IMG/VR virus record: IMGVR_UViG_3300044800_000104
Location: 1-23,888 of that record
DNA length: 23,888 nt
Direction: 5' to 3' (one strand)
Source of the DNA: a virus
This document shows, piece after piece, positions 2,837 through 20,043 of the stretch (positions are counted from its first letter, which is position 1; each line of letters starts with the position of its first letter). The position numbers were made by a program, and so were the translations under genes. The notes below the pieces were generated by a model. The model was given only the letters and a program-made list of their open reading frames with translations. It was not told where the DNA came from and made no database searches.

Positions 2837-2864
2837 GGTCAACCCGTGAGAATTGACCTTTTTT
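2836..2864 (+). terminator. Rho-independent terminator of the plus-strand operon
   Basis: The 7-bp stem AGGTCAA / TTGACCT closes a 10-base loop and is followed by a run of T (2859-2864). The stem begins at the last base of the previous stop codon. The T-run abuts the stop of the minus-strand gene, so the two convergent units meet here. The minus-strand reading has no T-run after the hairpin, so it should act mainly on the plus strand. Confidence 0.75.
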
Positions 2865-3555
2865 ACCACCTCCCTACCCTGAATTCATTTCCTTCAATGA
2901 TAACACCCTGACCGCCCTGACCTTTCCAGTATCCAGAGTTCTTGTACATTCCATCTATTTCTGCATAATGGATATGGCCTATGACCAAAGGGATTGATCT
3001 TTCATTTGCCCATTTTTTCATTATTACCTTTATGTCCTCATGCCTTGTGGACCCAGCACCAAAAGGGTTCGGGATGCCCAGATTGTCGTATAATTTCCAG
3101 ATATGAACTGCTGCCTCCCCTATAAAAGATAACTGGTCATCAACTGGATCTCCCTTGTGACCATGCGTTATGAGAATGGGGGGATCAGAGTCTAACACTA
3201 TGGCCTCCGGCAGGTCTGTCCGTTTATTATCATGGTTCCCACGTGTCCTAATGTCAGAATGCAAGTCCCCGTAGTATTTATACGGAGCGTCTCCAAATTC
3301 CCACAAATCATCGAGGTCGCCGTTATCTATGAGAAGATACCCAGTTTGACGGAAGGATTGTCGGACCTGATTATGTAAGTCCTCATTCTTGAGGAACTGG
3401 TCTGCAACGCTTTTATCCCCCCGGTGCTGATCGGAGAAGACTACTGCCTTGCTCGTTGAACCCCATGGGATTCTTGTGGCGTTCTTCAGGAACCCATCGA
3501 GGAGGCCCCATATTATTTCTTCCTCGATGGCAAATAGTCTGTCGTCCATTTCCAT
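2863..3555 (-). CDS. Calcineurin-like metallophosphoesterase
   Basis: The 230-aa product carries the full motif set of the calcineurin-like phosphoesterase fold: D42-x-H44 (FSDQH), G79-D80 with D83 (NGDLDD), G106-N107-H108-D109, H131 in THGH, and G193-H194-x-H196. These ligands normally hold two metal ions for phosphate ester hydrolysis. Family members include LpxH-type lipid A enzymes, nucleotidases and phage phosphatases; the substrate here cannot be told. It is the last gene of the late unit, after the lipoprotein gene, with AGGA seven bases before the ATG. A second ATG two codons in (3549) is possible. It has no signal peptide, so it should be cytoplasmic. Confidence 0.85.
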   Translation of the reverse strand: MEMDDRLFAIEEEIIWGLLDGFLKNATRIPWGSTSKAVVFSDQHRGDKSVADQFLKNEDLHNQVRQSFRQTGYLLIDNGDLDDLWEFGDAPYKYYGDLHSDIRTRGNHDNKRTDLPEAIVLDSDPPILITHGHKGDPVDDQLSFIGEAAVHIWKLYDNLGIPNPFGAGSTRHEDIKVIMKKWANERSIPLVIGHIHYAEIDGMYKNSGYWKGQGGQGVIIEGNEFRVGRW

Positions 3556-3556
3556 T

Positions 3557-4000
3557 TTAAAGTCCTAACGCAGTGACGTAGGGCAATATTTTTGCTAACA
3601 CCGCCGGAAAGAATGTCTGCATAATTTGATCAACTCCACTCTTTACGATAGATCCCCAAATCCATCCCCACAATACGACGACTTGCCCCATATCCTGATC
3701 CGTAAGCTCCTCACAGGTAAGAATCCCGTTCGCATCCTTTTTGACGCACTTCGCAGCAATGGTATCGAGCGTCTTGATGTCGTCACTGCAAGCACAAGGC
3801 AGCAATGTAGTGAACTTTTTAAGCACTACAGTAAGGGCACTTGAATTAAGAGGCCATGTCGAGGCTATTTCCCTGGCCGCAATTCGGGTCGTGGCAGCAT
3901 TTTGCTGGTCCATTACCGAGACCTTAGTCATAGCACTTTGATACGTTGCACAACCCATTAGAAACAGAAAAAAAAATGATATTATAATGAGCTTTTTCAT
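3557..4000 (-). CDS. Lipoprotein, possible outer spanin
   Basis: The product is 147 aa from the ATG at 4000, which has AAAGGAGGAAGTAAA before it; an in-frame ATG at 4018 lacks such a site. Residues 1-17 form a lipoprotein signal (MKKLIIIS, a Phe-rich core, then the lipobox L14-M15-G16-C17). The mature part is mixed and has paired cysteines (PCACSD and later CVKK, LTCEE) and a hydrophobic C-terminal third. Its place after an endolysin and small membrane proteins would suit an outer-membrane spanin subunit, but it is longer than typical Rz1 proteins and not proline-rich, so this is only a suggestion. Confidence 0.6.
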   Translation of the reverse strand: MKKLIIISFFFLFLMGCATYQSAMTKVSVMDQQNAATTRIAAREIASTWPLNSSALTVVLKKFTTLLPCACSDDIKTLDTIAAKCVKKDANGILTCEELTDQDMGQVVVLWGWIWGSIVKSGVDQIMQTFFPAVLAKILPYVTALGL

Positions 4001-4014
4001 TTTACTTCCTCCTT

Positions 4015-4197
4015 TCATTGTCTTATTGTTCCTCCAGTCACATTGAAATCCTTTGCAAGGAAACCTATTACTGCAACCGCTATCGCCATGATCAATGCGT
4101 GAGGATCAATCTTGCCCGATTGAATAATCGGATAAATGGCGATGCAAACGGCGCCCAGCAAACCAAACAAAGAAGTCTTCCAGTTTTTCCCTAACAT
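4015..4197 (-). CDS. Small membrane protein, holin candidate (60 aa)
   Basis: The start is preceded by AAAGGAGGTGAGTTAA, the same leader as the gene at 5614-5841. The 60-aa product begins with KNWKTSLFGLLG, has a hydrophobic helix at about 9-25, a short IQSGKIDP turn and a second hydrophobic helix at about 33-48, then a polar tail (KDFNVTGGTIRQ). This two-helix pattern with a KDxNVTGG end recurs in small phage proteins often found next to lysis genes. Size, topology and position suit a holin or holin-like protein, but holin families are diverse and this is unproven. Confidence 0.6.
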   Translation of the reverse strand: MLGKNWKTSLFGLLGAVCIAIYPIIQSGKIDPHALIMAIAVAVIGFLAKDFNVTGGTIRQ

Positions 4198-4213
4198 TTA
4201 ACTCACCTCCTTT
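4195..4213 (-). repeat. Duplicated translation-start leader, copy A
   Basis: AAAGGAGGTGAGTTAAATG (19 bases, ending with the start codon) is identical to 5839-5857. Both precede small two-helix membrane proteins. Confidence 0.7.
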
Positions 4214-4219: not shown

Positions 4220-5236
4220 TCATAAAGCATCCTCCTGCCTTTCATGAAAGTATCTTTGAACTTCCCTTCGCAGTTGAGGGTTTCTATCGTTTAGAACATA
4301 AAGCCCCTGCCAATCCCTCTTCAAATCCGTATCGGGGTTAAACTGACATTTTACCAGAATGTTTTCCCTTGTTGCATATTGCCTTCCGGCTTTTGGCCCA
4401 TGCCAGTAATGAAGGCAAACACCATTGACAACCCCTGCATTTCCACAAATAGCCCGCTCCTGCCACAAGCTTTGCTTTGCACGGTTCTCCCACTCAAAGA
4501 GCCGAGCCTTGAGCCGAGGATGGTACTTTCTCTGTAAATAATAATCAAGATGACCAACCAACGCATAGGCCATATAACTGTCTCCAGCTCCAAGGATGCA
4601 ATAGTCAATTAGACCTCCCAACTGGTCCCAGGCTTCTCTTCGCATGGCCCACGCAAGACCAGGTGCTCCAGGATAGAAAGGCTTTTTTTCGATGCTTGGA
4701 TAAGGATAGGGATAAGGATAACCAGTTTTTATGGTGTGGATTACCTTCTCTGGATTTCCGTTCATCCACCAATCAATAAAGCTCCTAATCGTTCCTCTCA
4801 AATTGTAGTCCGAATCGAGATCGTGCATCTGAGTCCACATCTGCACAACGGGCCAATGCTGGAGAGCATGAATCGTTTCGTCTGCCCAGTCAGAACGGAC
4901 GAAGTGAGTATCTGCATCCACCCAGGCCACATAGCTCCAGTCCTTCGGGAGCCTCTGGACTCCAAGATTGATAGCGTTCTCCTTGTACCAAAGTTCATGG
5001 TGTGTCCTCAGTTGCAGGTGGCGAGGATTATCTGGTTGTGTGACGGCGAATTCTCTTTCTCCAAATGCAATCTCTACCGTATAGAGGATCGCACCCGTGT
5101 TCTCACAGGATAAGGCAAAGTCCTCATAGAGTTTCCATCGGCTTCGATACCTGGGAGAGTTGAAGACCGTCGTAATTACATAAAGTGGTTTTTGGATTCG
5201 GTCTGGCCGCTGAAAAAAAGTGTTTATGTGAGCCAT
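4220..5236 (-). CDS. Glycosyltransferase, GT-A type
   Basis: The 338-aa product has an early beta strand (PLYVITTVFNS), the metal- and nucleotide-binding D107-A-D109 in YVAWVDADTHF, and an acceptor-side segment (GAPGLAWAMRREAWDQLGG then GAGDSYM) resembling the G-x-G...R...GG...ED pattern of family 2 enzymes, with Gly-Asp in place of Glu-Asp. A late HYWHGPKAGRQY motif adds conserved-looking histidines. No membrane span or signal is seen, so it should act in the cytoplasm with a sugar nucleotide. Phage enzymes of this kind may modify host surface glycans, DNA or virion proteins; the target is unknown. A YPYPYPYP stretch (residues 173-180) is coded by tandem 6-base repeats. The start has AGGGGTG upstream. 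Confidence 0.8.
   Translation of the reverse strand: MAHINTFFQRPDRIQKPLYVITTVFNSPRYRSRWKLYEDFALSCENTGAILYTVEIAFGEREFAVTQPDNPRHLQLRTHHELWYKENAINLGVQRLPKDWSYVAWVDADTHFVRSDWADETIHALQHWPVVQMWTQMHDLDSDYNLRGTIRSFIDWWMNGNPEKVIHTIKTGYPYPYPYPSIEKKPFYPGAPGLAWAMRREAWDQLGGLIDYCILGAGDSYMAYALVGHLDYYLQRKYHPRLKARLFEWENRAKQSLWQERAICGNAGVVNGVCLHYWHGPKAGRQYATRENILVKCQFNPDTDLKRDWQGLYVLNDRNPQLRREVQRYFHERQEDAL
4698..4721. repeat. Hexanucleotide tandem repeat GGATAA
   Basis: Four tandem 6-base units (GGATAA, GGATAG, GGATAA, GGATAA) lie within the glycosyltransferase gene and code for alternating Tyr-Pro. Unit gain or loss would keep the frame. Confidence 0.7.
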
Positions 5237-5841: not shown

Positions 5842-5857
5842 TTAACTCACCTCCTTT
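5839..5857 (-). repeat. Duplicated translation-start leader, copy B
   Basis: Identical over 19 bases to 4195-4213 and ends with the start codon of the holin candidate. It overlaps the stop codon of the endolysin gene. Confidence 0.7.
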
Positions 5858-6201
5858 TAATAAAGCCAAATTACATCCTGTGGATGTTCCTCAACCGTAT
5901 CCAGATGAATAAAGGTTTTACCAATTCCAATTCGCTTAATCCCCCTCTTAATGGCACAACTGACAATTTTAAATCTTATTTGTGATAGAGCAGCAGCCAC
6001 ATCTATTGCCTTTCCTTTATTGTGATTTCCATCCCCATGGATTTCTTCATCATGCTTGGTGCATCTGAATCCTGAAACTACTCCTATCGGTTCCCCAACA
6101 TCTTCTCTGATCGAGTCCATAAGGTCCATGAAGGTAGGATTCATATTGCATTGACCACAACATTTACACTGCAATTCTGATTCCGAGAAGTATTTGCTCA
6201 T
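5857..6201 (-). CDS. M15-family peptidase, probable endolysin
   Basis: The 114-aa product is a compact peptidase M15 domain of the D-Ala-D-Ala or L-Ala-D-Glu type that cuts peptide cross-links of the cell wall. Visible features are VVSGFRCTKHDEE (substrate-side segment), the zinc ligands H60 and D67 in NHNKGKAIDV, and the last ligand H99 in FIHLD. The N-terminus FSESELQCKCCGQC is the cysteine-rich start often seen in this family. There is no signal peptide, so export would depend on a holin, and holin candidates sit next door. AAAGGAAGGAAA precedes the ATG. The full set of ligands argues that it is active. Confidence 0.88.
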   Translation of the reverse strand: MSKYFSESELQCKCCGQCNMNPTFMDLMDSIREDVGEPIGVVSGFRCTKHDEEIHGDGNHNKGKAIDVAAALSQIRFKIVSCAIKRGIKRIGIGKTFIHLDTVEEHPQDVIWLY

Positions 6202-6211
6202 TTTCCTTCCT

Positions 6212-6472
6212 TTAAAAGCGAAATACCGTTTTTGCCACTCCTGAGATGAAACCTCCGATCAATCCAAATACCCCACTCACAGTCATATCGAGCTTCTTTC
6301 TATTTTCCAGAGTTTTAAACCTTCCATTGCAGCTCATTAATCTATTCTCGCAGTCAATATCTTTTTTACAGAGAAGAGTATAGACATTAGCTGTGTAATC
6401 AAAAAGAATATTTAACTTTGTGTTCGGGTCACTTATTTTCTCAAAATCCCTTTGATCAATCATTGAGGGCAT
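6212..6472 (-). CDS. Small C-tail membrane protein (86 aa)
   Basis: The frame is open further upstream inside the next gene, but the ATG at 6472 has GAGAGGAGGACTGCG before it, so the product is 86 aa. It begins MPSMIDQRDFEKI, has a helical middle with several cysteines (LLCKKDIDCENRL, MSCNGRFKTLENRKK) and a single hydrophobic C-terminal helix (SGVFGLIGGFISGVAK). A helical domain plus a C-terminal membrane anchor next to an endolysin recalls XhlA-type lysis accessory proteins, but the match is only in plan. The start region overlaps the end of the gene upstream by no more than its stop and leader. Confidence 0.6.
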   Translation of the reverse strand: MPSMIDQRDFEKISDPNTKLNILFDYTANVYTLLCKKDIDCENRLMSCNGRFKTLENRKKLDMTVSGVFGLIGGFISGVAKTVFRF

Positions 6473-6485
6473 CGCAGTCCTCCTC

Positions 6486-7127
6486 TCAAATGTTACAGGC
6501 TTCAGCGGTAACCATCTGGATAGTGATAGCGTCAGCAGTCCCGGAGGTGATGCAGATCCCAATATAAGTCGGCACGGTGACATCAAACGTACCTGAAATC
6601 GTATTGACTACCACGAGAGGGATCGTGGCATGTCCGGTTCCCGCCAGGTTGTGATGCATGATAAATTCGCCCGCCACGACTCCCGAAGCTGAAAGCGGCC
6701 CCCTGACTACGGCTGTGATCTCAATCCATCCTTCATCTATTACTGCCGTCCCAACTGGTTTGGTAAATGACACCTGTGCGGTATCGGCGGTAGTGCCAGC
6801 CGTTCCAAACGCTATGTCAAAGGTGCTCGCTGCCGTTCCGGCGGCAGTCTTCGTTATATTAAATCTCCAACGAAATGTCGTTCCGATTTTCAATTTACCG
6901 GGCAAATAAACTGATGATCCTAAAATATATGTTCTGGTAGTTGCAGCAGGGGTCTGAGCGGCTGTGCTGTAGTTAGTCACCATACCAGATAAGATATTGC
7001 CCGAAACATCAACAAGAAAGGCAGGCATAGCCGTAGTGGGGTAACCCGGGGGGGGATAGGTTAATGCCCACGCTTGGGTCGTCAACATAAATACAATCAG
7101 AAGTCCGAATACAAAGAGTTTTTTCAT
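6486..7127 (-). CDS. Exported beta-rich protein, possibly a surface or virion protein
   Basis: The 213-aa product has a Sec signal peptide (MKKLFVFGLLIVFMLTTQAWA, likely cut after residue 21). The rest is rich in Thr, Ala, Gly and Val and reads as alternating beta-strands (TFRWRFNITKTAAG, STFDIAFGTAGTT, GWIEITAVVRG, GEFIMHHN), suggesting a jelly-roll or similar beta-sandwich. Similar beta-rich proteins in phages are often minor structural or fibre-associated proteins, but a signal peptide on one is unusual. It sits between the fibre genes and the endolysin. It shares an ATGA overlap with the gene upstream and has AAAAGGAGGAAGTGAA before its start. Confidence 0.6.
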   Translation of the reverse strand: MKKLFVFGLLIVFMLTTQAWALTYPPPGYPTTAMPAFLVDVSGNILSGMVTNYSTAAQTPAATTRTYILGSSVYLPGKLKIGTTFRWRFNITKTAAGTAASTFDIAFGTAGTTADTAQVSFTKPVGTAVIDEGWIEITAVVRGPLSASGVVAGEFIMHHNLAGTGHATIPLVVVNTISGTFDVTVPTYIGICITSGTADAITIQMVTAEACNI

Positions 7128-7408
7128 TTCACTTCCTCCTTTTTAGCGGGATTTTGTCCCTGCTCCTGTTTTGGAATATTTTTCTTTCCCTCTTCCTGCT
7201 TGATCTGCTCGGCCTTCATTATGTCATTCAACCTGATTTCTATAGTTTGCATATCACGTTTGGCGAGCTCAAATTCAGCCATGAGACGGCCCAATTTCTC
7301 CTGTAACACAGCCCTCTGGAGTTGAAGCTCTTCTCTTTCACCCGCCCTTGCAATCGTCCACCCGCAGAGGACAGCCAACAGAATTGACAAAATAATCAAT
7401 TTTTTCAT
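7124..7408 (-). CDS. Exported or inner-membrane coiled-coil protein, possible inner spanin
   Basis: The 94-aa product begins with a hydrophobic N-terminus (MKKLIILSILLAVLCGW) that could be a signal peptide cut after ARA (residue 22) or an uncleaved anchor. Residues about 24-66 form a charged coiled coil (EREELQLQRAVLQEKLGRL, then AKRDMQTIEIRLNDI), followed by a Lys/Gln/Glu-rich tail. An N-terminal anchor with a periplasmic coiled coil is the layout of inner spanins (Rz-like), and a lipoprotein is coded downstream, but the two are not adjacent as usual. AAAGGAGACTATAT precedes the start. Confidence 0.55.
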   Translation of the reverse strand: MKKLIILSILLAVLCGWTIARAGEREELQLQRAVLQEKLGRLMAEFELAKRDMQTIEIRLNDIMKAEQIKQEEGKKNIPKQEQGQNPAKKEEVK

Positions 7409-7420
7409 ATATAGTCTCCT

Positions 7421-10400
7421 TTACTGAGCTTTTAAAAAACCACTACCATCTACTACAACCTTCTTTAATACTCCACCCACTACGATATTAATTGGGTTAT
7501 TAGCATCTGCATTGGAGTCCAATCTCATATATTCCACTCCAGTGCGTTGAAAAGATAATCCATAATCAACGGAAGCAGTTTCATTATCCAAAATATCCCA
7601 ATATTTAGTGCCGTCTTGGCGGGTTAGCCTTAGAGATGGAATTTCTTTGCGAATCTGTAAATTTGCATTGAGAAGGCTAACGTGACCCCCTGCATTAATA
7701 TCCATCCATCCCCAAGCACCAGTGATTCCATAAGGTAGATTTTCTCCATCCCTCCAAGAATGGGCATGAAAATAGTTTGGATCTGGAGTTCCAGAAGAAG
7801 CAATGTCTCTTATTGAACAACCGTAGAAATTATTTGATTGAGGATATACGGAAAAGGTATTTCTTAAAAGCAATCCACGTTTTGTGCTTGCATGGGTATT
7901 CCCAATGTCCACTTCAATAAAGGTGTTAGAGTCAGTAAAATCTAAAACCGCTGGATAGTAAGAAGTCGGAGTACCTGAATCCAAAACTTGTATTACGCCA
8001 GCGTGAAAGACATTTCGATGCCAGTCGTTGATGTTGCCTGATTTCGTCCCATCTATCACCATTCCATAAGCATCGCCTATTTGGATGAAAAAATTCTCAA
8101 TTAGATTTGTGCTTGACCATCCGCCGGAAACATTCTCACAATTCAGATCAAAGGCAGTTCCCCCGACTGCTACATTTAACAGTCGGAAGTTCTTGAATTG
8201 AGACATTGTTGCTCCAATGATACTCAAGAGCTTCGTCGCATTATTATTGCCGTCAACCTGAACACCATCGAGAATATATCCGCTTCCAGAATGAGTATAT
8301 TCTACAACCGTTCCACCACCAGAGGTCTTTTGGATTATGGTTTGGTCAGGGCCAGCAGCTATGATCTTAACTCCAGTCCTTACTGTTGCGTCGCTTCCTT
8401 GAGGATAGAACGTGGTTGTGCCAGTAAAAGTCCCTCCAGCCACAAGGATTATTCCTCCACTTGAGGGAAGAGAATTGACTGCGGTTTGAATGTCCGCAAC
8501 GGTTAGACCTGATTTTATATAAAGGACTGTCGAGGCTCCTCCAAATATTCCACCATCATTAAATTGAAATTGGGGATTTGAACCTCCAGGACTGCCTCCT
8601 CCACTACCAGTACCAGAGATTAAATTCTTGTTAGCATCTGTAAAAACAGGCTTTGAAGCGGTCAAACCTGCAATATTTACATAACCATCATTGGTGATAC
8701 GCATCCTCTCGTAAGTGTTTAAAGAACCAACTGGAACCGTTTGGAATATAATATCGCTTGGAGTTGATGTAACACTGAAAAGTCCAGCTGCTTGAACTAT
8801 AATTCGAGCTGATGTGTTAAACAAAGCTCCACCACCAAAACCTGCAAAAGAAATAGTCCCCAACGCATCCCCTGATTGTGGAAAGTAAGGGGTCGTTGCT
8901 CTCCCCTTAGCAAAATTAAGATATGGCCCACTGGCAGAGTCAATAAACCCTGTCAAGGCAGCATAAGGAGCACCCCCGTAAACAGCAGGATAGAGGGAGA
9001 TAGCATAAGGGCCACCGCCATATAAAGAAACAAGGTCTAATTGACCAGTTGTTTCCAATCTCATCTTTTCTGCATTATTCACTCCAAATATCATCGGAGC
9101 ATTAGCCTTACTCCAAAGATATGAATATCCACCATAAGTAGTAAAGGCTGAGGAGTTTATTCTTAGATAAAATTGATCTGCTGTTGAGTCATTGCCTAAA
9201 CTTATCTGGTTATATGAACCTGTTCCAGCAGAGATATTTCGAGTGGCCAGTGATATCTTGCCGCCTGTATAAGAACCCAAGACGCTCAGGAGATGGTTTG
9301 TATAATCGTAGGTAAATATCCCTGAATCTGCTCCAAAAGTGCCGCTTGCGTTAACCTGGACATCCTTATCAGAACCTCCAACGGTTAACCCAGAGGCCGG
9401 AGTGGCCCAACCAGGGATTAAATGCCCTCCGCTCGTAACTACTGTCATAATTTGGCCTAAGGTTTGAATGGGCAATCTGTCGGTAGTATTACTGATATTT
9501 CGATAAATCATATCCCCAATGGTGGTCATGGGGTCAGACATTCCTCCACCTGAGCCTGAAGCCCAATTTAAAATGCCAACCCAACCATTTCCAGAAGAAG
9601 GTACTTGAGTAATAGCCGGAACATACCCAAGAGTTCCTGCTCCTCCTGGGATTTCCCAAATGATGCTCTGGGAGATGGAGTTTGGAGCCTTCAACCCAAT
9701 GTATGTCGTGCCATTTACGGTAGCTTCTCTTAACCTAAGTTCTGCTCCCACGGAAGATGAACCAGAAATATCCAGTTGGGAACTAGGATTTACTGTCCCA
9801 ATTCCGACTTTTGCATTTAAAGTCAATATTTGGCTGACTGGATCATCAGCAAATACCCCATAGATCAATGACTTGGTGTATTCATCCGAGGCGGACGGTC
9901 TCGCTCTGTCATCAATAAGAAAAACATTACTTCCGGTTTGGTGACTTCCAGCAAAATAACCAATAAAAACATTTCCTGATCCAGTTGAGTTCCCATATCC
10001 TATAAAGGGAGAACCGGCTGCGCCTCTACCAATATATATATTGGACGAGCCAGTCGTATTCGAGCCACCCGATTCTTGCCCTAAAAATGTGTTATCCTGT
10101 CCAGTTGTGTTTTGACCTCCAGAATATTGACCCAAAAAAGCATTGTCTGAACCGGATATATTTGATGCTCCAGATGATGTTCCGACAAATGTATTCTCAT
10201 ATCCGGCAATGTTTGCCTGTCCCGCTGATGCTCCCATAAAAGAGTTATAATATCCAGTGGTGTTATTCTGTCCCGCTGATGTCCCCATAAAAGAATTCCC
10301 TTGTCCGGTAGTATTACTGTACCCAGCAATCGAACCAAAGAAAACATTACTGTTTCCGGTGGTATTATATATTCCAGAGTTGATACCAACAAACAAATTG

Positions 10401-10819
10401 TATTGACCATCTACCCCACCGATATGACTTAAACTTCCTCCACCATTCCCAAATATAAGACTTCCAGCAAAGTTAGTTTGGTCGGGGAGATAAATCATTT
10501 GATATGTATTAACCCTCATTTTTCCCTTTATTTCCAATTCATAAGAATGGACTGTCCCAGTTGTTTTATCAAATGTGAAATTTAGATTTCCTCCAAATGC
10601 CCCGCCGTCGTTGAATTGAACTTGAGTATTTGAACCCCCAGGAGTACCACCCCCAGGCAGCGGAAGCACCGATTGAAGGCTATAGCAATGAACGATTCCG
10701 CCTATTGTACCAGGAGGACTATTATCACTGGTTACATAATAATCTGAATCCGCTCCAAAGCAAAATGCAGGCAATAGGGCCACAAGAAAAATAATAAGGA
10801 GACTCTTAATTTTTTTCAT
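7421..10819 (-). CDS. Large tail fibre or tailspike-like protein with signal-like N-terminus
   Basis: The product is 1132 aa. Residues 1-23 look like a Sec signal (MKKIKSLLIIFLVALLPAF then CFGA). PGGSNTQVQFNDGG at 60-73 and a near copy at about 743-757 are linkers seen in phage and metagenome fibre proteins. Residues 141-259 are seven 17-aa repeats of the N-x-F-x-G-x-x-x-G-x-x-N-T-T-G type, followed by two irregular ones. VGIGTVNPSSQLDIS (338-352) is a typical fibre motif. From about 765 to 990 is a pectate-lyase-like segment (LTVADIQTAVNSLP, then a run of short beta strands), suggesting a parallel beta-helix that may bind or cut host glycans. It overlaps the previous gene by ATGA, which places it among the baseplate and fibre genes. 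Confidence 0.8.
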   Translation of the reverse strand: MKKIKSLLIIFLVALLPAFCFGADSDYYVTSDNSPPGTIGGIVHCYSLQSVLPLPGGGTPGGSNTQVQFNDGGAFGGNLNFTFDKTTGTVHSYELEIKGKMRVNTYQMIYLPDQTNFAGSLIFGNGGGSLSHIGGVDGQYNLFVGINSGIYNTTGNSNVFFGSIAGYSNTTGQGNSFMGTSAGQNNTTGYYNSFMGASAGQANIAGYENTFVGTSSGASNISGSDNAFLGQYSGGQNTTGQDNTFLGQESGGSNTTGSSNIYIGRGAAGSPFIGYGNSTGSGNVFIGYFAGSHQTGSNVFLIDDRARPSASDEYTKSLIYGVFADDPVSQILTLNAKVGIGTVNPSSQLDISGSSSVGAELRLREATVNGTTYIGLKAPNSISQSIIWEIPGGAGTLGYVPAITQVPSSGNGWVGILNWASGSGGGMSDPMTTIGDMIYRNISNTTDRLPIQTLGQIMTVVTSGGHLIPGWATPASGLTVGGSDKDVQVNASGTFGADSGIFTYDYTNHLLSVLGSYTGGKISLATRNISAGTGSYNQISLGNDSTADQFYLRINSSAFTTYGGYSYLWSKANAPMIFGVNNAEKMRLETTGQLDLVSLYGGGPYAISLYPAVYGGAPYAALTGFIDSASGPYLNFAKGRATTPYFPQSGDALGTISFAGFGGGALFNTSARIIVQAAGLFSVTSTPSDIIFQTVPVGSLNTYERMRITNDGYVNIAGLTASKPVFTDANKNLISGTGSGGGSPGGSNPQFQFNDGGIFGGASTVLYIKSGLTVADIQTAVNSLPSSGGIILVAGGTFTGTTTFYPQGSDATVRTGVKIIAAGPDQTIIQKTSGGGTVVEYTHSGSGYILDGVQVDGNNNATKLLSIIGATMSQFKNFRLLNVAVGGTAFDLNCENVSGGWSSTNLIENFFIQIGDAYGMVIDGTKSGNINDWHRNVFHAGVIQVLDSGTPTSYYPAVLDFTDSNTFIEVDIGNTHASTKRGLLLRNTFSVYPQSNNFYGCSIRDIASSGTPDPNYFHAHSWRDGENLPYGITGAWGWMDINAGGHVSLLNANLQIRKEIPSLRLTRQDGTKYWDILDNETASVDYGLSFQRTGVEYMRLDSNADANNPINIVVGGVLKKVVVDGSGFLKAQ
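10043..10399 (-). repeat. Seven 17-residue (51-bp) repeats in the fibre gene
   Basis: The consensus per unit is N-x-F-[VFML]-G-x-x-[AS]-G-x-x-N-x-[TS]-G-x-x. All seven units are exactly 17 residues long. A 23-residue unit and a shorter one follow. The pattern fits a left-handed beta-roll as in YadA-type trimeric proteins. Confidence 0.8.
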
Positions 10820-11820
10820 AGGTTATCTTCCCACCCCGATGCGTAGAGATAAGATGCAGCACCCCCGTTGGCCCAATAAATGTTCGTGCTTTCAAGGATC
10901 ATTTTAACGAGCATTCCCTCATAAGTAGCGGCATAATTGCTTGCGGGGACTAAAAGGCAAAGAGGCGGGTTTGTGGTGCTATCAGTTCCACCGTAATTAT
11001 TATTCGGGACCACGGCAATGCCCCAGTTATTGAGCTCATAGAGTTCGAGGGCAATTTGAAAAGCGGTAGGGGGAACAAAGTTTCCGACTGGTACGGCTAC
11101 CCATGTGGGTGTGGTTAAATTGCCTGCCGCCCCGCTTGCCATCACGGGAAGACCTGACCCGCTGTTGACGTACTGGACTGTGCGACCATATTGAATTATT
11201 GGAATTAAATACTTATTTGCATCCGTTCTGACCCAACCTAATCTTACTCCATAGGTATAGCCAGAAAGCGTGGGGTATGTTGCGCTGAGCGAAATCACTC
11301 CGGTCAAGGTAGATGTAGTGGGGTTATAAAGCGCCCACACCGCATACCACGTGTTTGCAGCTAATGATCCGGTATCGAGGCCACCTGCCCCAGAGACCCC
11401 AGTATTTATGGTTAGATTCACGCCTGATTGCCTGAGCGATAGGCCAAGGGTTGAATTCCAGAGGTTGATAAAATTAGCCAAGATGGTCAACTGTGTGGTG
11501 GAAGTTACCTTAATTGCCAGCCCACTAAAGTCGCTGGTTTGCACTATTGGAAGCTCCGGCTTCGTCACGATGTCGGAAAGCACCGTGATCAGAGTGGATA
11601 TGCTGGCGTCGGAGATTGTGTAACCCTTAGCTTTCAGCATTTCTCCCATTGCCCTGACGAAAGTAGAAAGCTGGTAAAACAATTTATTAGCCGTCAGGGA
11701 TGGGAAAATCTGTCCATTCGGAGCACCGCCCGATCTTTGAGAATCCGCCAAATAAGCTGTGTCATCTTCTTGGTTTACTTTGTTAGGGTTCCATTGCAAT
11801 AAATTATTTGAGCCTGCCAT
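10816..11820 (-). CDS. Tail fibre or baseplate-attached fibre protein
   Basis: The 334-aa product has an N-terminal block (NLLQWNPNKVNQEDDTAYLADSQ, cut here to the key pattern LQWNP...N..D..YLADSQR..GAP.GQIFPS..ANKLFYQ) that I recognise from fibre proteins of contractile-tail prophages, where it probably fixes the fibre to the baseplate. The remainder is Thr/Ser/Gly-rich beta-type sequence with a TWYAVWALYNPTT segment, then EGMLVKMILES near the end. There is no signal peptide. It follows the DUF2612 gene and precedes the large fibre, which is where distal fibre genes lie in P2-like gene orders. AAAGGAGAAAATT precedes the ATG. Confidence 0.75.
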   Translation of the reverse strand: MAGSNNLLQWNPNKVNQEDDTAYLADSQRSGGAPNGQIFPSLTANKLFYQLSTFVRAMGEMLKAKGYTISDASISTLITVLSDIVTKPELPIVQTSDFSGLAIKVTSTTQLTILANFINLWNSTLGLSLRQSGVNLTINTGVSGAGGLDTGSLAANTWYAVWALYNPTTSTLTGVISLSATYPTLSGYTYGVRLGWVRTDANKYLIPIIQYGRTVQYVNSGSGLPVMASGAAGNLTTPTWVAVPVGNFVPPTAFQIALELYELNNWGIAVVPNNNYGGTDSTTNPPLCLLVPASNYAATYEGMLVKMILESTNIYWANGGAASYLYASGWEDNL

Positions 11821-11832: not shown

Positions 11833-12801
11833 TTAAATCCATTTTCCTAAATCCCAGCCGGATACAAAGCTATCGACCCTGTCAAAACCGAAGAATGGCA
11901 TCGAGCCGTATGAGAGATTCATTAAAACCCCCTGTGGCCTCGGAACAATGTAATCATGGGTTATCAAACCAATTATAATGGAAGAAAAAGCCCCGCTCAG
12001 TAATACAGTGAAACTCATGTCCTGGTTCGTTTGAGGGAAAATCTTTCCTCCAGGAAAGACCCTTTGCCATAGTGATTGAAGGCTGTCAATCGTCCCGTCC
12101 CACATGTTCTTCCCTATCGTGGCCAGTATTAACGTGCGATAAGTATTGTCATCAAGAGTTGGGCTTGGTATTTCTTGAACCGACACATCGTCAATGTAGA
12201 ATTCGGCTGCTACGGAACCGGAATTATTTATAAAATATATGTTGGGGTCAGCCCCAATGCAGGTTCTCGTAAATTCTCCATATATCCAAGAACCAGTGGT
12301 GGTGTAGATATGGGCATCAGTATCGGGTTGTACCCTTAATGTTCCATTGACTAAATAATACCAAAAGGAAAACTTATATGTTTTACCTGTTATTATTGAT
12401 AAAGGTTGGCTAAATCCCCCATAACTTGGAGTTGAATCGATAATGTGAGCAGAATAACTTCCGCTATGTTTCTGAACTCCACTTTGTTCAAAAGTTTCTG
12501 GGGTAAAAGCAGCACTCCACCCCGTAGGCGGATTTCCAGTCTCCATTCCCCCATTGGTCACTAACTCTGGCCCGTTAGACGGCTGAAAGCCAACGGTTCT
12601 CGATACACCCACATAGCCCCCCAGGATGTCAAGTTGGTTCCCCACGGCGTTATCCACATCAAAGGCCGCTGGCAGAGAATTTGCACAATTCTCAATGTCG
12701 ATAAACAATTGGAGTGCCGCCTGAAGCCACGCCGTGAATTTAGGTCGGGTTTTGTGCTCGGACGTTATTAAATTTTTGTAGTAGTTTAAATCAAATTTCA
12801 T
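11833..12801 (-). CDS. DUF2612-type (gpI-like) baseplate protein with inserted carbohydrate-binding-like domain
   Basis: The 322-aa product has the two halves of a DUF2612-type tail protein: residues 1-76 end in AVGNQLDILGGYVGVSR, and 212-322 begin with LDDNTYRTLILATIGKNMWDGT. They are split by about 134 residues (78-211) that look like a family 4/9 carbohydrate-binding module: NGGMETG...GW near its start, SGSYSAHI in the middle, YKFSFWYY and FYIDDVSV at the end. The tail protein likely joins the baseplate wedge to the fibres; the insert may give the baseplate a second glycan contact. It overlaps the baseplate J gene by ATGA. Residue limits are estimates. Confidence 0.8.
   Translation of the reverse strand: MKFDLNYYKNLITSEHKTRPKFTAWLQAALQLFIDIENCANSLPAAFDVDNAVGNQLDILGGYVGVSRTVGFQPSNGPELVTNGGMETGNPPTGWSAAFTPETFEQSGVQKHSGSYSAHIIDSTPSYGGFSQPLSIITGKTYKFSFWYYLVNGTLRVQPDTDAHIYTTTGSWIYGEFTRTCIGADPNIYFINNSGSVAAEFYIDDVSVQEIPSPTLDDNTYRTLILATIGKNMWDGTIDSLQSLWQRVFPGGKIFPQTNQDMSFTVLLSGAFSSIIIGLITHDYIVPRPQGVLMNLSYGSMPFFGFDRVDSFVSGWDLGKWI
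12169..12570 (-). other. Inserted carbohydrate-binding-module-like domain
   Basis: Codes for residues 78-211 of the DUF2612-type protein. It starts with ELVTNGGMETG and ends with YIDDVSVQEI, both characteristic edges of CBM4/9-type beta-sandwich modules. Confidence 0.65.
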
Positions 12802-13976
12802 ACGCTCGTTACCGTGATATTAGCCGCAATTCCTTGGCAAACTTCATTAAAGTTGATAGAAATATCAGTTTGTGCAGGCGTCCCGCCGTGCAAGCAGGCC
12901 CCCACTGACTCTATGGAGAAAATAGGCTTAGTGAGATCCGGCATCAATGAAAGCGTCGCCCCTACTATCCCCGTTAATACTGTCACCAGTTCTCCTATCT
13001 GAAGAGAATTTAGGTAATTGACAATTGCCGTCTTTATTTGTGCCAGAAGGGCGGACGTCCCTCCAGGCAAGAGGTGTATGGTCATCATGACATCTATCGG
13101 CTTATACGTGGGCCGATAGAAATGTATTTGAGTAACAAACCCATACACTGGGTCTGTGACATCTACTTCTGTGGTCCCATTGGTGTACGCATAATTGCTG
13201 TTATTGTAAATGGCATAGGCAATGTCCGATTGAGCACCGCCCTCCACGACGCATGTGATTGAGTGAGCGGGTGTCCCGTATGTATCGGGAGATCCAGTCG
13301 GGTTCTCAAAGATGTTGTACCTTGTCACCCCATTTATGCTGGCTATGGCACCCATCGTGCCGACCAGGAGGGTCTTTGAGGGTAATGCGATGCTGATAGC
13401 CTGTCTCGCTCTCAACTGCGCATCCGTCTCCGCGGGTTGACCGAGAATGGCTGCGTTAACGTTCGTCACGCTCACCCACCCGTAGGTTGGAGTGACTATG
13501 CTGGTTATGGTTCCCGGAAGAGCGGCTATTGCGCCTATAGTTTGACATGTGGCGGTCACTGTGATGGCGCCTTGAGCGGGAATTGTTACTGATACGGGTA
13601 AATTCCACTTGTAACCAGCACTGTCCCCCACGACCCCATTCAGGATTATAGTCCCTGCGTATCCGTTTATCGTCACGTCGCATGTGGAGAAGGATGCGGC
13701 CTTTCTGCTGATGCCATTAATTTTCATAAGGGAATCAAGGGCCGTTTGGATAGCAGTCAATGGGGATCTGTTATTGTAATCAAGCTGAAGGGTCTTCATG
13801 GTGTCCGAGGCAAGCAGCGCCATCACGGAAATCCATTGGTAATCCTGGCTGTCGTTGCCTAAGTATACATCCGACCCAAAGATAGACTGGTAGTTTGACA
13901 CCAAATAAGCGAGAATGTCAGCGTAAGATGGTAAAATCAATCCTGCAGATCCAACATAAGGAGCCTGATAACTCAT
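12798..13976 (-). CDS. Baseplate J-like protein
   Basis: The 392-aa product has the hallmark of baseplate J/gp6-type wedge proteins: ILAYLVSNYQSIFG near the N-terminus, ALDSLMKINGISRKAAS, the PAETDAQLRARQ segment and a C-terminal region with repeated beta-alpha units (VMMTIHLLPGG, IKTAIVNYLNSLQIGELV). In P2 and T4 this protein forms the wedge ring of the contractile baseplate, surrounding the hub. The length is near the usual 300-400 aa. Its ribosome binding site AGGAGG is in the last codons of the gp25-like gene. It lies in the standard order between the W-like and I-like genes. Confidence 0.9.
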   Translation of the reverse strand: MSYQAPYVGSAGLILPSYADILAYLVSNYQSIFGSDVYLGNDSQDYQWISVMALLASDTMKTLQLDYNNRSPLTAIQTALDSLMKINGISRKAASFSTCDVTINGYAGTIILNGVVGDSAGYKWNLPVSVTIPAQGAITVTATCQTIGAIAALPGTITSIVTPTYGWVSVTNVNAAILGQPAETDAQLRARQAISIALPSKTLLVGTMGAIASINGVTRYNIFENPTGSPDTYGTPAHSITCVVEGGAQSDIAYAIYNNSNYAYTNGTTEVDVTDPVYGFVTQIHFYRPTYKPIDVMMTIHLLPGGTSALLAQIKTAIVNYLNSLQIGELVTVLTGIVGATLSLMPDLTKPIFSIESVGACLHGGTPAQTDISINFNEVCQGIAANITVTSV

Positions 13977-14318
13977 TTAACCTCCTGTAGCCACAGTGCC
14001 GTAAGTAGTATTGACATTGGCTTGAAAACTGTACTGCCTATTCACAAAGCTTGAAGAGAAATTTTGAATTCCTATTACTCCTTGTGTCCCCAAAATCCTC
14101 GCCGTATAGATAGCGTCGATCTTATCTTTGGGAGTCCTTTGACCAAGAATCTGCTGCCATAAAGGAAGTCCATCTGTAAGATCTTCCCACCATTCCCCGT
14201 ATAAAAGCTTGAGGCGTGTGACCACGGCCTGCCCCACGGCATCCCTGCCAGTTAAAAAGTCATTCGATCCGCTGCCCGTGATCATATCACCATTGCTGTC
14301 AAGCTTCCTGTATTTCAT
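13977..14318 (-). CDS. Baseplate wedge protein, gp25/W or Mu gp46-like
   Basis: The product is 113 aa from the ATG at 14318, which shares an ATGA with the stop of the spike gene; the open frame extends upstream but without an alternative start of merit. The visible pattern ITGSGSNDFLTGRDAVGQAV, then RLKLLYGEWWEDLTDGLPLWQ, and I-x-x-x-x-x-ARILGTQGVIGI fits Mu gp46/gp25-type baseplate proteins, which clamp the wedge near the sheath start. It has the usual small size and precedes baseplate J. Confidence 0.82.
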   Translation of the reverse strand: MKYRKLDSNGDMITGSGSNDFLTGRDAVGQAVVTRLKLLYGEWWEDLTDGLPLWQQILGQRTPKDKIDAIYTARILGTQGVIGIQNFSSSFVNRQYSFQANVNTTYGTVATGG

Positions 14319-15178
14319 GACGTTCCCATGGGTAAAAAATACAAAAATGAAGTATAAGCCCCCGCACTGATAACCTGCAAAGTAGTGCTGTAAGTCTCCC
14401 CTTTTCTCACGGGAAAACAAAATGAGTTTGAAGGGATAAAATCAAGACCACCATACATAGATATGCCAGCTGTTCCGCAAAGCACGCCGCCTGCATATCC
14501 TAATAGTCGAACAATTACATTTGGTGCTCCATCAACAAACCCACCATGTAAGAATCCATCAGTATCAGCCGTGTAAGATGATCCTACGGCTTTAGTCTGT
14601 CGAGCACCGAATGATGAGACCTTTTGAGTTATGATATTAAGGGTGTCCGTAGTAAGCTCTATGCTCTGGCTTCCAAAGACAAGCTTCACATGGTCCGCTG
14701 AAAGCTCAATATAATTCGTTCCGGCATCGTTCCTCATTTGAATTGAATTTTGAGAATACCCCTGGAGCACCCTTGGCTGACTCCATGGAGCAAGGATGGC
14801 AAAAGCGTCACTAAGATCGTGTCGCCTCCTAAACATCTGATCCTGAATCCCCCCTGCACTCCACCAGGAGTCTATGCAACTATCGGAGAAAATGAGCAGG
14901 CACTCATCCCCCTGGCTTATTGGGAGCGTGATTGAGAATCCCCCGCTGCGAGGAAGGATGATAGGGACGTCGACAATAAGAGGAAGCCTCTGCCGAGACA
15001 AAACCCCGTCAATATTTATCCTCTCCGTAATACAGGGCTGAACCGTCACGGTTTGCTTTGTGGCATCAAATGACTGGATGATGCCAGGCATCGCCACATG
15101 AAGACGAAACATCACGTTATCGATGATCCTTCTGAAAAGCTCTTCCTGTTCTCCTAATCTCTCTGATACACCCTGCAT
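14315..15178 (-). CDS. Baseplate spike protein, Gp138 N-terminal type
   Basis: The 287-aa product opens with a helix (LFRRIIDNVMFRLHVAMPG) and an OB-like region (GIIQSFDATKQTVTVQP, VDVPIILPRSGGFSITLPI, GDECLLIF, then RRHDLSDAFAI) as in the Gp138 N-terminal family of central spike proteins. The C-terminal part has beta-rich DAGTNYIELSADHVKLVFG, as in needle-like spikes, and then a Gly/Ala-rich segment. It should form the membrane-piercing tip of the tail. The leader AAGGTGAAATA overlaps the stop codon of the hub gene. No metal-binding HxH apex motif is apparent. Confidence 0.8.
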   Translation of the reverse strand: MQGVSERLGEQEELFRRIIDNVMFRLHVAMPGIIQSFDATKQTVTVQPCITERINIDGVLSRQRLPLIVDVPIILPRSGGFSITLPISQGDECLLIFSDSCIDSWWSAGGIQDQMFRRRHDLSDAFAILAPWSQPRVLQGYSQNSIQMRNDAGTNYIELSADHVKLVFGSQSIELTTDTLNIITQKVSSFGARQTKAVGSSYTADTDGFLHGGFVDGAPNVIVRLLGYAGGVLCGTAGISMYGGLDFIPSNSFCFPVRKGETYSTTLQVISAGAYTSFLYFLPMGTS

Positions 15179-15182
15179 TATT

Positions 15183-16166
15183 TCACCTTGTATGAAGTGG
15201 GGTAAATTCTGATATATCCGAATATTTACCTTTAACGTTTACCCCCGTCACATCCACGTACCAATCATTCCCACGTGTGTCCCCGACATAAGAAACCCCA
15301 ATGATTTTGAATTTAAATTCTCGGTCCAAAGCAGTCCAGAATTGACCAACCGTAGCCCGTCTTGTTTTTATGGCGATACTTTGAGGAATTTGAACCACTG
15401 TGAGAGGAGCAGTTATTTTGAGACGGGGATCAAGAAGATGGCGAAATTTAACTCCAAACTCCCACTGTTGGGGCGTCCCAATAAGACCAGTTTCTGGATC
15501 AATGACAATCGGATCTGCTAAATACGGTTCAGCAAGCTTTGCAACATTCCATTCTCCATTTTCTATAAAGGAATAGGCATCTTCATCCTGACAAATCCAT
15601 CTCATTAGCTCCGGAGGCTCCCCAAACATGGTACATCCCCTGGGACTTTGTTTTGTACTAAGGGTTGGAGATATCGTCCCTATTGGTATTGGCTTATGAG
15701 CGTTTTTTGCCATTGTCGCAATCATGCCAGCGTAATCGTATCCCGCCATCTTGGTGGCATTTACAAAATTGGATTCCAGGAGGCCCAACCCATCAAGACA
15801 TCGAAGAGTAGTTTTATAATCAACGACATTCTCTCTATCAAAAAAAGGCTGCCAAACTTTTCCGCTGAAAATAGAGCCATAAGGACCATCTTTATAACCA
15901 GCCTGAAAATTTACCCCCACCAATTCCTGAATGGCAATTTGCTCCGTTTCACTTGCAAAATTCCAAATCGTGAAATCTGCCCAAAATCCCTGTGCAAATA
16001 CGGATTTTTGAATGTTAAATTGCATCTTTAATGGCGTTGGTTGATCGCTTGAAATCTCCAAAGCCTCCGAAGGAAGAGGCGTAGCTTCCGCTCCAAAATA
16101 AGGAGCTAATTCGGGCTTTAAAGTTACAAGGAGCTTCCATTTCCTTCCGTAATACTTAACTGTCAT
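15183..16166 (-). CDS. Baseplate hub protein, gpD/gp27-like position
   Basis: The product is 327 aa from the ATG at 16166, which overlaps the upstream stop as TAATG and has AGGTGG before it; the open frame continues 12 codons further but without a better start. FNIQKSVFAQGFWADFTIWNF, then EQIAIQELVGVNFQAGYKDGPYGSIFSG, and LRCLDGLGLLES follow the pattern of phage hub proteins (strands around the tail tube, then a domain carrying the spike). The C-terminal half has the hub-like KTRRATVGQFWTALDREFKFKI. It sits directly before the spike gene, as expected. The specific family was not confirmed. Confidence 0.7.
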   Translation of the reverse strand: MTVKYYGRKWKLLVTLKPELAPYFGAEATPLPSEALEISSDQPTPLKMQFNIQKSVFAQGFWADFTIWNFASETEQIAIQELVGVNFQAGYKDGPYGSIFSGKVWQPFFDRENVVDYKTTLRCLDGLGLLESNFVNATKMAGYDYAGMIATMAKNAHKPIPIGTISPTLSTKQSPRGCTMFGEPPELMRWICQDEDAYSFIENGEWNVAKLAEPYLADPIVIDPETGLIGTPQQWEFGVKFRHLLDPRLKITAPLTVVQIPQSIAIKTRRATVGQFWTALDREFKFKIIGVSYVGDTRGNDWYVDVTGVNVKGKYSDISEFTPLHTR

Positions 16167-16708
16167 TATCCACCTGAGATATGAATGGCCGAGCCATTCC
16201 AAAACTTGTATTGATGGGATGTCATATTGTACCAGCGATATCCATCATGCTCCATTCCCCACCCAGTTGTGTTTGGATCTGTCATCAAATAAGGAGTCTC
16301 GGGTTGTGGCACGGCAGATGGAGTAGGAAGCAGAGCCTGCGCCACGGAGACCGGGACGGCTGCGGCAGGACCCGTGTCGCTGTAAACCAATTCAAAATCC
16401 GTGCCGAGGTTTTTGTCGTCCGGCTGCTTCGATGGATCGCCACTAACGTTTATTAGGTAAAGGCTTCCAATGACAAGATAAGCATATTGCTCTAATAGAT
16501 TTGCCGCCGGAAATACACCTGGAAGTAATGGGATACCGCAAATATAAGGAACTCCCGTCGGGGGATACCTTATGTCCATTGTCCAGTATCCCGCAGTCTC
16601 GTTGTAGGACAGAAAAAATTCAAGCGTCAAATTCCTCCCGTCTATATTGACCTGGGCCTGGAACTTCTGATTTGGGTCAGATGATAAAGGAATAATTTGA
16701 TCGCTCAT
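16166..16708 (-). CDS. Baseplate plug-like protein
   Basis: The 180-aa product begins IIPLSSDPNQKFQAQVNIDG and continues LTLEFFLSYNETAGYWTMDI, then GIPLLPGVFPAANLLEQYAYLVIGSLYLIN. This resembles the small baseplate plug (gp18 type) of cyanophage Pam3 and its relatives, which closes the tail tube above the hub. The Pam3-type domain should fill about the first 115 residues; the rest (VPQPETPYLMTD, then GYRWYNMTSHQYKFWNG) is an extra aromatic-rich tail of unknown role. It is joined to the genes on both sides by TAATG overlaps. The family assignment is from memory of the pattern. Confidence 0.65.
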   Translation of the reverse strand: MSDQIIPLSSDPNQKFQAQVNIDGRNLTLEFFLSYNETAGYWTMDIRYPPTGVPYICGIPLLPGVFPAANLLEQYAYLVIGSLYLINVSGDPSKQPDDKNLGTDFELVYSDTGPAAAVPVSVAQALLPTPSAVPQPETPYLMTDPNTTGWGMEHDGYRWYNMTSHQYKFWNGSAIHISGG

Positions 16709-17328
16709 TAATAACTCCCAGTCGCCCCACTGGCGTAACTTCCAGTCGCTCCCCCGAAACTTTTAGACTCTTGCGGGGATAGTGAATGGCATTGTAGTGT
16801 GCCCTCATTGGTGATATCCGATGTATCCTTCCTTGCGGATACCGGAACTTTTAAAACTTCAGCTGTGAATATCTGCTTCATCACTATGGTTGCACGAAGA
16901 GCAAACCTGGTTTTAATGTCGTCCTCCGTTGGCATACTCTCAATCACCATATTGTTGTATACCTGAAGCCTCGTATATAAGGTGATCGGCTGGCCAGACA
17001 TCTGAAGGTCGAGAAATTCCTGATATGCCGATTTTGATTTAGAAGGGTCCCCGTTGTAAGATTCTGTCATTTTTTCAAACCCAGGCGGGACGTAAACATC
17101 CATCACATCACTCATCCCTATTTCGATCGAGACCCGCGTTGGAAGTTGATATGAATGATCAGAGATGTTGGCCCCGGTCTGAATGGGGTGTTCCGTTATC
17201 ACACGGGACGGGTAATGCATCGTCTTAAAAACAGCATCGAAAAAATAAAACGTTGGTCCTCCGGTCTTTTGAATTTCCATGTAGACGAGTTGAATTTCAT
17301 CGTTTCCTTGCGGAGGTTTGTATCCCAT
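16708..17328 (-). CDS. Dit-like baseplate protein
   Basis: The 206-aa product has PTFYFFDAVFKTMHYPSR, then ITEHPIQTGANISDHSYQLPTR and VSIEIGMSDVMD, which matches the Dit-like N-terminal domain of baseplate proteins in short-baseplate myophages. Next is TLYTRLQVYNNMVIESM, typical of the barrel. The last 30 residues are low complexity and end in ATGSYASGATGSY, a small repeat. It should form the ring between tail tube and hub. AGGAGG lies at the end of the tape measure gene, with the two genes nearly abutting. Confidence 0.72.
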   Translation of the reverse strand: MGYKPPQGNDEIQLVYMEIQKTGGPTFYFFDAVFKTMHYPSRVITEHPIQTGANISDHSYQLPTRVSIEIGMSDVMDVYVPPGFEKMTESYNGDPSKSKSAYQEFLDLQMSGQPITLYTRLQVYNNMVIESMPTEDDIKTRFALRATIVMKQIFTAEVLKVPVSARKDTSDITNEGTLQCHSLSPQESKSFGGATGSYASGATGSY

Positions 17329-17329
17329 T

Positions 17330-18934: not shown

Positions 18935-19169
18935 CGGCGTCCTTTCTCAACTTCATCCATCCTTGGTATCTTTTCTCATTCTCCGCTTTCGTCTCAGCCA
19001 TTTCGTACCAGTCAAGAAGGTCTTCAAAAGTATAAGTCCCGTCCCAGACTTCGTGTTGTTTCCATTCGCCCGCCATTACGGGGCCATAGGCGAATTGATC
19101 GACGGTTTCGCACCGGGCGGCACTAAATCCCGGAGAGTCTTCAACCCCTCGCTCAGTGCGTTTCCTTCG
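18924..19169 (-). CDS. Tail assembly chaperone frameshift extension (GT-like)
   Basis: This frame joins the upstream chaperone by a -1 shift at the TTTTTTC site, giving a fusion of 139 plus 81 residues (220 aa). The extension is RRKRTERGVEDSPG and so on to the C-terminus GWMKLRKDADAL, with a helical TFEDLLDWYEMAETKAENEKR segment. An ATG at 19076 overlaps the previous stop as TAATG, but no ribosome binding site precedes it, so separate translation (50 aa) is less likely than frameshifting. This matches the G/GT and P2 E/E' arrangement upstream of the tape measure gene. Confidence 0.75.
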   Translation of the reverse strand, partial: RRKRTERGVEDSPGFSAARCETVDQFAYGPVMAGEWKQHEVWDGTYTFEDLLDWYEMAETKAENEKRYQGWMKLRKDADAL

Positions 19170-19585: not shown

Positions 19586-19596
19586 ATGTTCCTTTC

Positions 19597-20043
19597 TTAT
19601 GCGTTAATGGTCTGAATGTCAGCCGCCATCAGAGGCCAATGCCTGACTTGACCTGATCTCTGGTAAGGCTGATCGGCTAACTTTTGAAAACTCATCCCAA
19701 ATAGATTGTGAGATCTTCCGGTCACGATGTCCCTAATAGTTGCAGTCATCAAAGCCCATTGGTCCGGAGTTGCGATGAGAACTTGGTTATAGGTCTTCAA
19801 GAGCCATTCATCAAGATCGCTCGTTTGCTGAACTTCCAGAGTCACAATGCCGTTATTCCCTAAAATTTTGGATATCATCACGATCCCGTCTGCGGCCACA
19901 CTATGCTCCGTTTTTTCAGTGGACATCACGATGCTGACGCTCCCAACCCCTGTCTGTAGACCCCCCGCACCGGCAAAGGCAAATACCCCCGTCAATGGGT
20001 GATCTAACGCACCTGCCACGTTCTGAAAGCTATAGACGTACAT
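19597..20043 (-). CDS. Tail tube protein (DUF3277-like)
   Basis: The 148-aa product follows the sheath gene, the normal place for the inner tube. It begins MYVYSFQNVAGALDHPL and has SVSIVMSTEKTEHSVAADGIVM and GNNGIVTLEVQQTSDLDEWL, alternating strands that fit a tube barrel; the pattern recalls DUF3277-type tube proteins found beside DUF3383-type sheaths in Burkholderia Bcep-type phages. The length is typical for a tube monomer. It stacks in hexamer rings within the sheath. AAAGGAGGGATAAAAA lies before the ATG. Confidence 0.82.
   Translation of the reverse strand: MYVYSFQNVAGALDHPLTGVFAFAGAGGLQTGVGSVSIVMSTEKTEHSVAADGIVMISKILGNNGIVTLEVQQTSDLDEWLLKTYNQVLIATPDQWALMTATIRDIVTGRSHNLFGMSFQKLADQPYQRSGQVRHWPLMAADIQTINA

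Follow-up and report, generated by a model that had tools for sequence, protein, structure and literature searches.

Why would a tailed phage place Sec-type leaders in front of proteins that resemble parts of its virion? The morphogenesis of tailed phages is treated as wholly cytoplasmic, and to our knowledge no cleaved Sec leader has been described for any virion protein of the Caudoviricetes. The question is raised by a 23.9-kb fragment of an uncultured tailed phage (IMG/VR record IMGVR_UViG_3300044800_000104; label G000), which we refer to hereafter as the window. A preliminary description of this DNA had proposed that three consecutive genes (6486–7127, 7124–7408 and 7421–10819) and a fourth at 22625–22984 begin with an MKK-hydrophobic leader followed by a plausible cleavage site.

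Leader-bearing genes of a contractile-tailed phage

Profile searches (PHROG and Pfam) assigned the minus strand of the window to a contractile-tail module with neck, sheath, tube, tape measure, baseplate hub and wedges, a gpI-like DUF2612 protein, fibres and an M15 endolysin. The tail core (12798–22617), in which PHROG matches identify baseplate wedge and hub, a tape measure with a lysozyme-like domain, tube, sheath and neck, is without leaders. Also leaderless are a baseplate/fibre-base protein at 11833–12801 (DUF2612 with a CBM_4_9 insert; PF11041, PF02018 and phrog_587) and a fibre/receptor-binding protein at 10816–11820 (phrog_17105, 8.4e-40). The M15-type endolysin (5857–6201; phrog_894, 3.5e-21) comes after the leader cluster. 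The window has no close relative among isolate phages, the best sheath match being 38% identical, and a sheath query of viral contigs likewise returned no close relatives. Similar copies of a Gly-rich repeat, GGTGYxxxDxxTVVQSGGxGxxVKV, occur in the neck protein (21443–22249) and the sheath (20070–21428), apparently as an inserted domain. A glycosyltransferase-like protein of 338 aa with no Pfam match (4220–5236) is encoded between the endolysin gene and a lipoprotein gene.

Leaders were scored with a home-made rule, not with SignalP, that considers the charge of the n-region, a hydrophobic stretch free of charged and H/N/Q residues, and the residues at −3 and −1; it does not discriminate between a cleaved signal peptide and an N-terminal anchor of the Rz type. 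All four ORFs were confirmed at the positions given above, each starting with MKK, 10–16 uncharged hydrophobic residues and small residues at −3/−1, and all four passed the rule (positive n-region, 8–16 uncharged hydrophobic residues, small −3/−1 residues). None of the 58 proteins annotated as structural in lambda, Mu and P22 passed, and the positive controls, lambda Lom, Bor, Rz and Rz1, did. When the residues of the four N-termini were shuffled, 1.7–5.7% of the products still passed. Thus, the proposed leaders were borne out by this rule-based prediction. Elsewhere in the window, the rule flagged an outer-membrane-barrel-like protein on the plus strand (204–836; aromatic last residue, ...GIRVQW), a minus-strand lipoprotein with the lipobox LMGC (3557–4018) and a small membrane protein (4015–4197), and none of the core tail genes.

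The leader ATGs of the four genes are plausible starts in their sequence context. A Shine-Dalgarno sequence, AAGGAGG, lies 7 nt ahead of the start at 7127 (gene 6486–7127), and AAGGAG precedes the start at 7408 (gene 7124–7408); the starts at 10819 and 22984 overlap the preceding stop codon as ATGA. An internal ATG at codon 22 of 22625–22984 has no Shine-Dalgarno sequence.

The proteins behind the leaders

In the product of 6486–7127 (minus strand), the leader comprises residues 1–21 (7065–7127), with cleavage predicted between MKKLFVFGLLIVFMLTTQAWA and LTY, and a phage beta-sandwich head domain occupies residues from about 50 to 213. Homologues 54–69% identical are found at loci L002–L006, with more at L096–L110; all are leaderless, and 12 of 12 homologues of the head domain on viral contigs have no leader. 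In alignment with L003–L006, the leader is a pure prefix. Elsewhere, the domain is either a leaderless phage gene or, in two cases (L006 and L101), fused behind fibre-type N-termini. A tblastn search of isolate phages with the head domain gave no match, and an AF2 model (pLDDT 54) displayed only a general beta-sandwich with low confidence.

The 1132-aa protein of 7421–10819 (minus strand) is of the fibre/tailspike type, matching PHROG virion structural, tail-spike and tail-fibre families (PHROG 23837, 6002, 4636 and 9942; 8e-10 to 1.5e-6). Its leader, residues 1–22 (10754–10819), has a predicted cleavage between MKKIKSLLIIFLVALLPAFCFG and ADS. YadA-head-like repeats (residues about 138–300) are followed by a 240-aa block (349–588) that is 61% identical in G001, a 60-kb uncultured phage record with a large-terminase match (loci L007 and L206 are among its labels), and by a right-handed beta-helix-like stretch at about 790–1050, recognised by eye only. 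Behind the leader, this protein and L007 both have the short motif DYxV..GxVHxYSL. Pfam gave no match anywhere in the protein, mature N-terminus included, and revealed neither an outer-membrane anchor nor a surface-export signal. A trimeric autotransporter, brought to mind by the YadA-head-like repeats, was rejected: no YadA-type anchor was found, the C-terminal 353 aa having no Pfam match. The AF2 model of these 353 aa was unusable (pLDDT 31).

The 119-aa product of 22625–22984 (minus strand) is a Gp77-type fibre-tail adaptor (PF23148, 1.3e-24; 87 bits against a cut-off of 27), which phmmer also matched to 8jou_D, a virion-associated protein of GP4. Its leader, residues 1–23 (22916–22984), is predicted to be cleaved between MKKFVIIIFIILSLLAPFDNLMA and QSF. 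The Gp77 of podophage GP4 has the same PF23148 domain and is located in the virion, between fibre and tail, in PDB 8jou. The window adaptor follows an Arg-tailed fibre gene; it differs from GP4 Gp77 in its Sec leader and rapid evolution. Among the non-redundant homologues with complete N-termini on viral contigs, 66 of 67 have no leader, the sole exception being that of L169. Alignment with the leaderless L175 (MTTSFISNSDGW; MTTSFISNSDGWPVIDKDP...) shows that the window Gp77 retains the entire adaptor, with 23 residues added in front. The two leader-bearing Gp77s have the longest end branches of the family tree (1.28 and 1.48; median, 0.46), a result that relaxed virion docking would predict, and their leaders may have a single origin. 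We had also considered the missing conserved 'DER' motif of these two proteins as a sign of lost docking; this was dropped, as the virion Gp77 of GP4 is also without DER.

Upstream of the adaptor gene, a frame open to the contig end (22981–23886, minus strand) encodes its presumed partner, a repeat-rich fibre with its N-terminus beyond the contig end and an Arg-repeat tail, HPEELRSIIHPVEDRVLRVMP, like those of the partners of other Gp77 genes. Fibres preceding Gp77 genes (e.g. L162, L175 and L116, as well as 22981–23886) end in the pattern ...ExRxxxVxAExRxxx..., to which the adaptor probably binds. Most Gp77 genes examined have an Arg-tailed fibre upstream. At the leaderless Gp77 loci, none of 24 complete upstream Arg-tailed fibres carries a leader (counted by eye; the automated search caught off-frame ORFs).

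Judged from these alignments, the leader was added, as a derived prefix, to virion-type proteins that are otherwise complete, and the comparison with leaderless homologues proposed in the preliminary description came out in favour of export. Its label 'virion-type' is firm for 22625–22984 (PF23148) and good for 7421–10819 and 6486–7127; it did not hold for 7124–7408, a coiled coil.

This 94-aa coiled-coil protein (7124–7408, minus strand; L007/G001 homologue) has a leader or anchor, with cleavage predicted between MKKLIILSILLAVLCGWTIARA and GER, and is encoded directly downstream of the fibre. A search of genome contigs with the coiled coil found no relative. Compared with the L007/G001 relative, 12 of 22 leader codons differ nonsynonymously, whereas the 59 mature codons contain 5 such changes. 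Such divergence of the leader over a conserved mature part is expected of a signal peptide, which preserves a pattern rather than a sequence. The protein is a candidate for a periplasmic fibre chaperone or an i-spanin. Taken alone, it may be the latter, that is, an Rz-like protein with an N-terminal anchor and a periplasmic coiled coil, a layout that it shares with lambda Rz; it would then be uninformative on fibres, and the lipoprotein of 3557–4018, which is also common to G001, would be its possible outer-membrane partner. Lysis genes are close by. However, its matches to Rz-like profiles are weak (PHROG 739, E = 0.0032; another, 0.047), and in both phages the coiled coil adjoins the leader-bearing fibre upstream of it, not the endolysin.

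Leader-bearing fibre genes in other uncultured phages

G001, in which no relative of the window's sheath was found, shares a set of genes with the window: an outer-membrane-type protein (204–836; 89% identity), a metallophosphatase (90%), the lipoprotein (92%) and two small membrane-type proteins (97–98%). One of the latter, encoded between the leader cluster and the endolysin (6212–6472, minus strand), likely starts at codon 39 of ORF 6212–6586; the G001 match begins at residue 35 of this ORF (98% aa and 96% nt identity). At the DNA level, window segments 2863–4211 and 6210–6486, with the metallophosphatase, lipoprotein and small membrane-type genes, are 85–96% identical to L206 15647–18270, and the gene at 204–836 is 88% identical to its counterpart in the otherwise unrelated G001. 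From these identities, we take the shared metallophosphatase, lipoprotein and membrane genes to be a lysis/envelope cassette recently exchanged between a contractile-tailed phage and G001. The 204–836 product is possibly a surface or exclusion factor.

Besides the coiled coil and the 240-aa fibre block, G001 shares with the window the head of the leaderless protein 10816–11820, residues 91–334 of which are 52% identical to a leader-bearing G001 protein of 416 aa. In this protein, Mtd_N (3e-14), an N-terminal domain of phage receptor-binding proteins, starts at residue 30, directly after the leader, so that it resembles the receptor-binding proteins of the major tropism determinant (Mtd) type but differs from them in having a leader in front. 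10816–11820 itself has a weak match to the Mtd second domain (1.5e-4, below the cut-off). A leader-bearing Gly-rich fibre tip fills, in G001, the slot of the window's 6486–7127, beside the shared lysis-side genes.

Leader-bearing fibre-type genes recur in unrelated uncultured phages, namely G001, G003, G004, G005, G006, G007 and G008. In a non-redundant set of 62 viral proteins that contain the PGGSNTQVQFND fibre motif, five have leaders, and these occur in runs (L021, L046, L052, L061 and L081); L021 encodes leader-bearing fibres of 778 and 1405 aa, the longer with Peptidase_S74, and L061 a leader-bearing protein of 1561 aa with a C-terminal K1-lyase_C. Over 148 loci, 10 adjacent same-strand pairs of leader genes were observed against 0.86 expected (maximum of 5 in 5000 across-loci shuffles), a statistic that measures clustering and not frequency, the loci having been chosen via fibre genes. 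Across-loci shuffling is the informative test; shuffling labels within loci gave a weak excess (11 versus 5.8). A large-terminase match was present in five of the eight leader-gene records, and none of the eight contained a relative of the window's sheath. A tblastn search of isolate phages with the leader-bearing fibre-type proteins of G003, G004, G006 and G007 gave no match. The leader genes occupy fibre slots, followed by lysis genes, and in the window they show translational coupling with tail genes. The window (10816–11820), G005 (554 aa), G006 (302 aa) and G007 (462 aa, by eye) each have, in addition, a fibre or fibre-like gene that lacks a leader.

At L169 (G008), leaders are found alike on the Gp77 adaptor, on a 149-aa protein (hinge) homologous to a mycobacteriophage virion structural protein, and on a 786-aa Arg-tailed fibre. 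Such a set is what co-export would predict, as a single positive case and not a statistic.

Proposed roles: periplasmic fibres or envelope-acting proteins

What has to be explained, then, are leaders that are derived, variable, recurrent and clustered, and that in one phage are common to fibre and adaptor. Sec export of the leader-bearing proteins is, by prediction, very probable. The preliminary description had suggested export to the host envelope, for example as decoys or exclusion factors; the export part gains from the leader grammar, the contrast between leader and mature part, the leaderless homologues and the recurrence, and the exported proteins may be either decoys or exclusion factors or virion parts that join late.

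We tentatively favour the reading that fibre complexes are made beyond the inner membrane and meet the virions at lysis. A Sec leader would have been added secondarily to the N-terminus of a fibre/tailspike, a coiled-coil partner, a receptor-binding head and a fibre-tail adaptor. Late in infection of a Gram-negative host, the four proteins would pass through the inner membrane and acquire their fold in the periplasm, where docking-competent fibre complexes would form; these would join the leaderless tails of the cytoplasm only once the inner membrane fails at lysis, making assembly a two-compartment process. A possible gain is that receptor- or glycan-binding parts are kept from receptor precursors, or that folding takes place where Ca2+ is plentiful and conditions are oxidising. 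Attachment of fibres to completed particles is feasible in general, as seen with T4 and P22 in vitro. We narrowly prefer late joining because, in addition, adaptor and fibre would be exported together, docking modules are kept, and the fibre-slot genes are coupled to tail genes. More guardedly, assembly in some tailed phages might be divided, the cytoplasm yielding capsid and tail core and the periplasm, after Sec export, a full docking-competent set of fibre, adaptor, head and possibly a chaperone, with the two joined only at lysis; unrelated phages would have arrived there by prefixing leaders to ordinary fibre genes.

It is a serious possibility, ranked close behind, that the proteins are exported and never enter the virion, acting in the periplasm or outer membrane as depolymerases or as blockers that bind receptors or glycans, like Lom, Bor, Llp and Cor but derived from fibre modules; they could serve superinfection exclusion or guard progeny from re-adsorbing to debris. 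The securely known leader proteins of tailed phages (lambda Lom, Bor and Rz1) all act on the envelope. Lambda Lom and Bor, T5 Llp and Cor are comparable in that their genes, which are of late or prophage type, encode Sec leaders, and lom is located in the lambda tail-fibre region; they are, however, small outer-membrane proteins or lipoproteins, whereas those of the window are fibre, head and adaptor modules, and no lipobox or barrel was found in the four leader proteins. The exported G001 head shares 52% identity with its virion-type counterpart in the window, a likeness to be expected of a receptor competitor, the outer-membrane-type protein and lipoprotein are common to both phages (89–92%), and the leader-bearing Gp77s evolve faster. 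Because the window, G005, G006 and G007 also have a leaderless fibre or fibre-like gene, adsorption of the virion might not need the exported proteins. On the other hand, a plain decoy gains nothing from the export of an adaptor with its fibre or from keeping Mtd_N, and such docking pieces are kept, namely Gp77 and the Arg-tailed fibre in L169 and Mtd_N in G001. The large protein, in which no outer-membrane anchor or surface-export signal was found, is also not easily reconciled with this role, nor are genes that sit in fibre slots and are translationally coupled to tail genes.

The preliminary description's other suggestion, a leader retained in the virion to contact the membrane, is disfavoured. 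That it remains uncleaved there, or anchors fibres in the inner membrane, is unlikely: the rule also flags Rz, and the h-region of 7124–7408 and its L007 relative is long (about 16–19 residues), but the other three proteins have h-regions of only about 10–13 residues and small −3/−1 residues, the 7124–7408 leader is not conserved relative to its mature part, and leaderless homologues exist in other phages. Chance hydrophobic starts or misplaced start codons are very improbable: a few per cent of shuffled N-termini do pass the rule, but the leader ATGs have Shine-Dalgarno sequences or stop-start coupling, 0 of 58 controls passed and the clustering is far above chance.

Virion proteins made with Sec leaders, which are cleaved, are familiar from filamentous phages (pIII and pVIII); these, however, belong to an unrelated virus type assembled at the inner membrane, whereas the window's virion is a contractile-tailed particle. 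Among tailed phages, our literature search, which covered papers outside subscription, found no precedent beyond a single protein, and no isolate or proteome was found for phages of the present kind. This protein, ORF22 of Thermobifida phage P1312, is a 1096-aa protein with a predicted N-terminal signal peptide and CBM_4_9, for which secretion and prevention of superinfection were proposed (PMC4569894); it differs in being a metallophosphatase of a phage with a Gram-positive host and in lacking a fibre or adaptor set. A recurrent set of Sec leaders on fibres and their adaptor would mean one of two things: some of the virion's parts mature outside the cytoplasm, or phages station copies of their fibres in the host envelope. 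The two options have consequences for host range, superinfection and the assembly of fibres, and are directly testable. For annotation, a metagenomic protein that combines fibre domains with a signal peptide is not necessarily a cellular adhesin.

Leader-bearing genes for proteins of about 150 aa, of different families, were also seen in head regions (L196 5946–6407, L199 14240–14680 and L205 1348–1776). In G007 such a gene directly follows the one for the major capsid protein, in G005 it apparently does so too, and in G001 it lies a short way downstream of the portal region.
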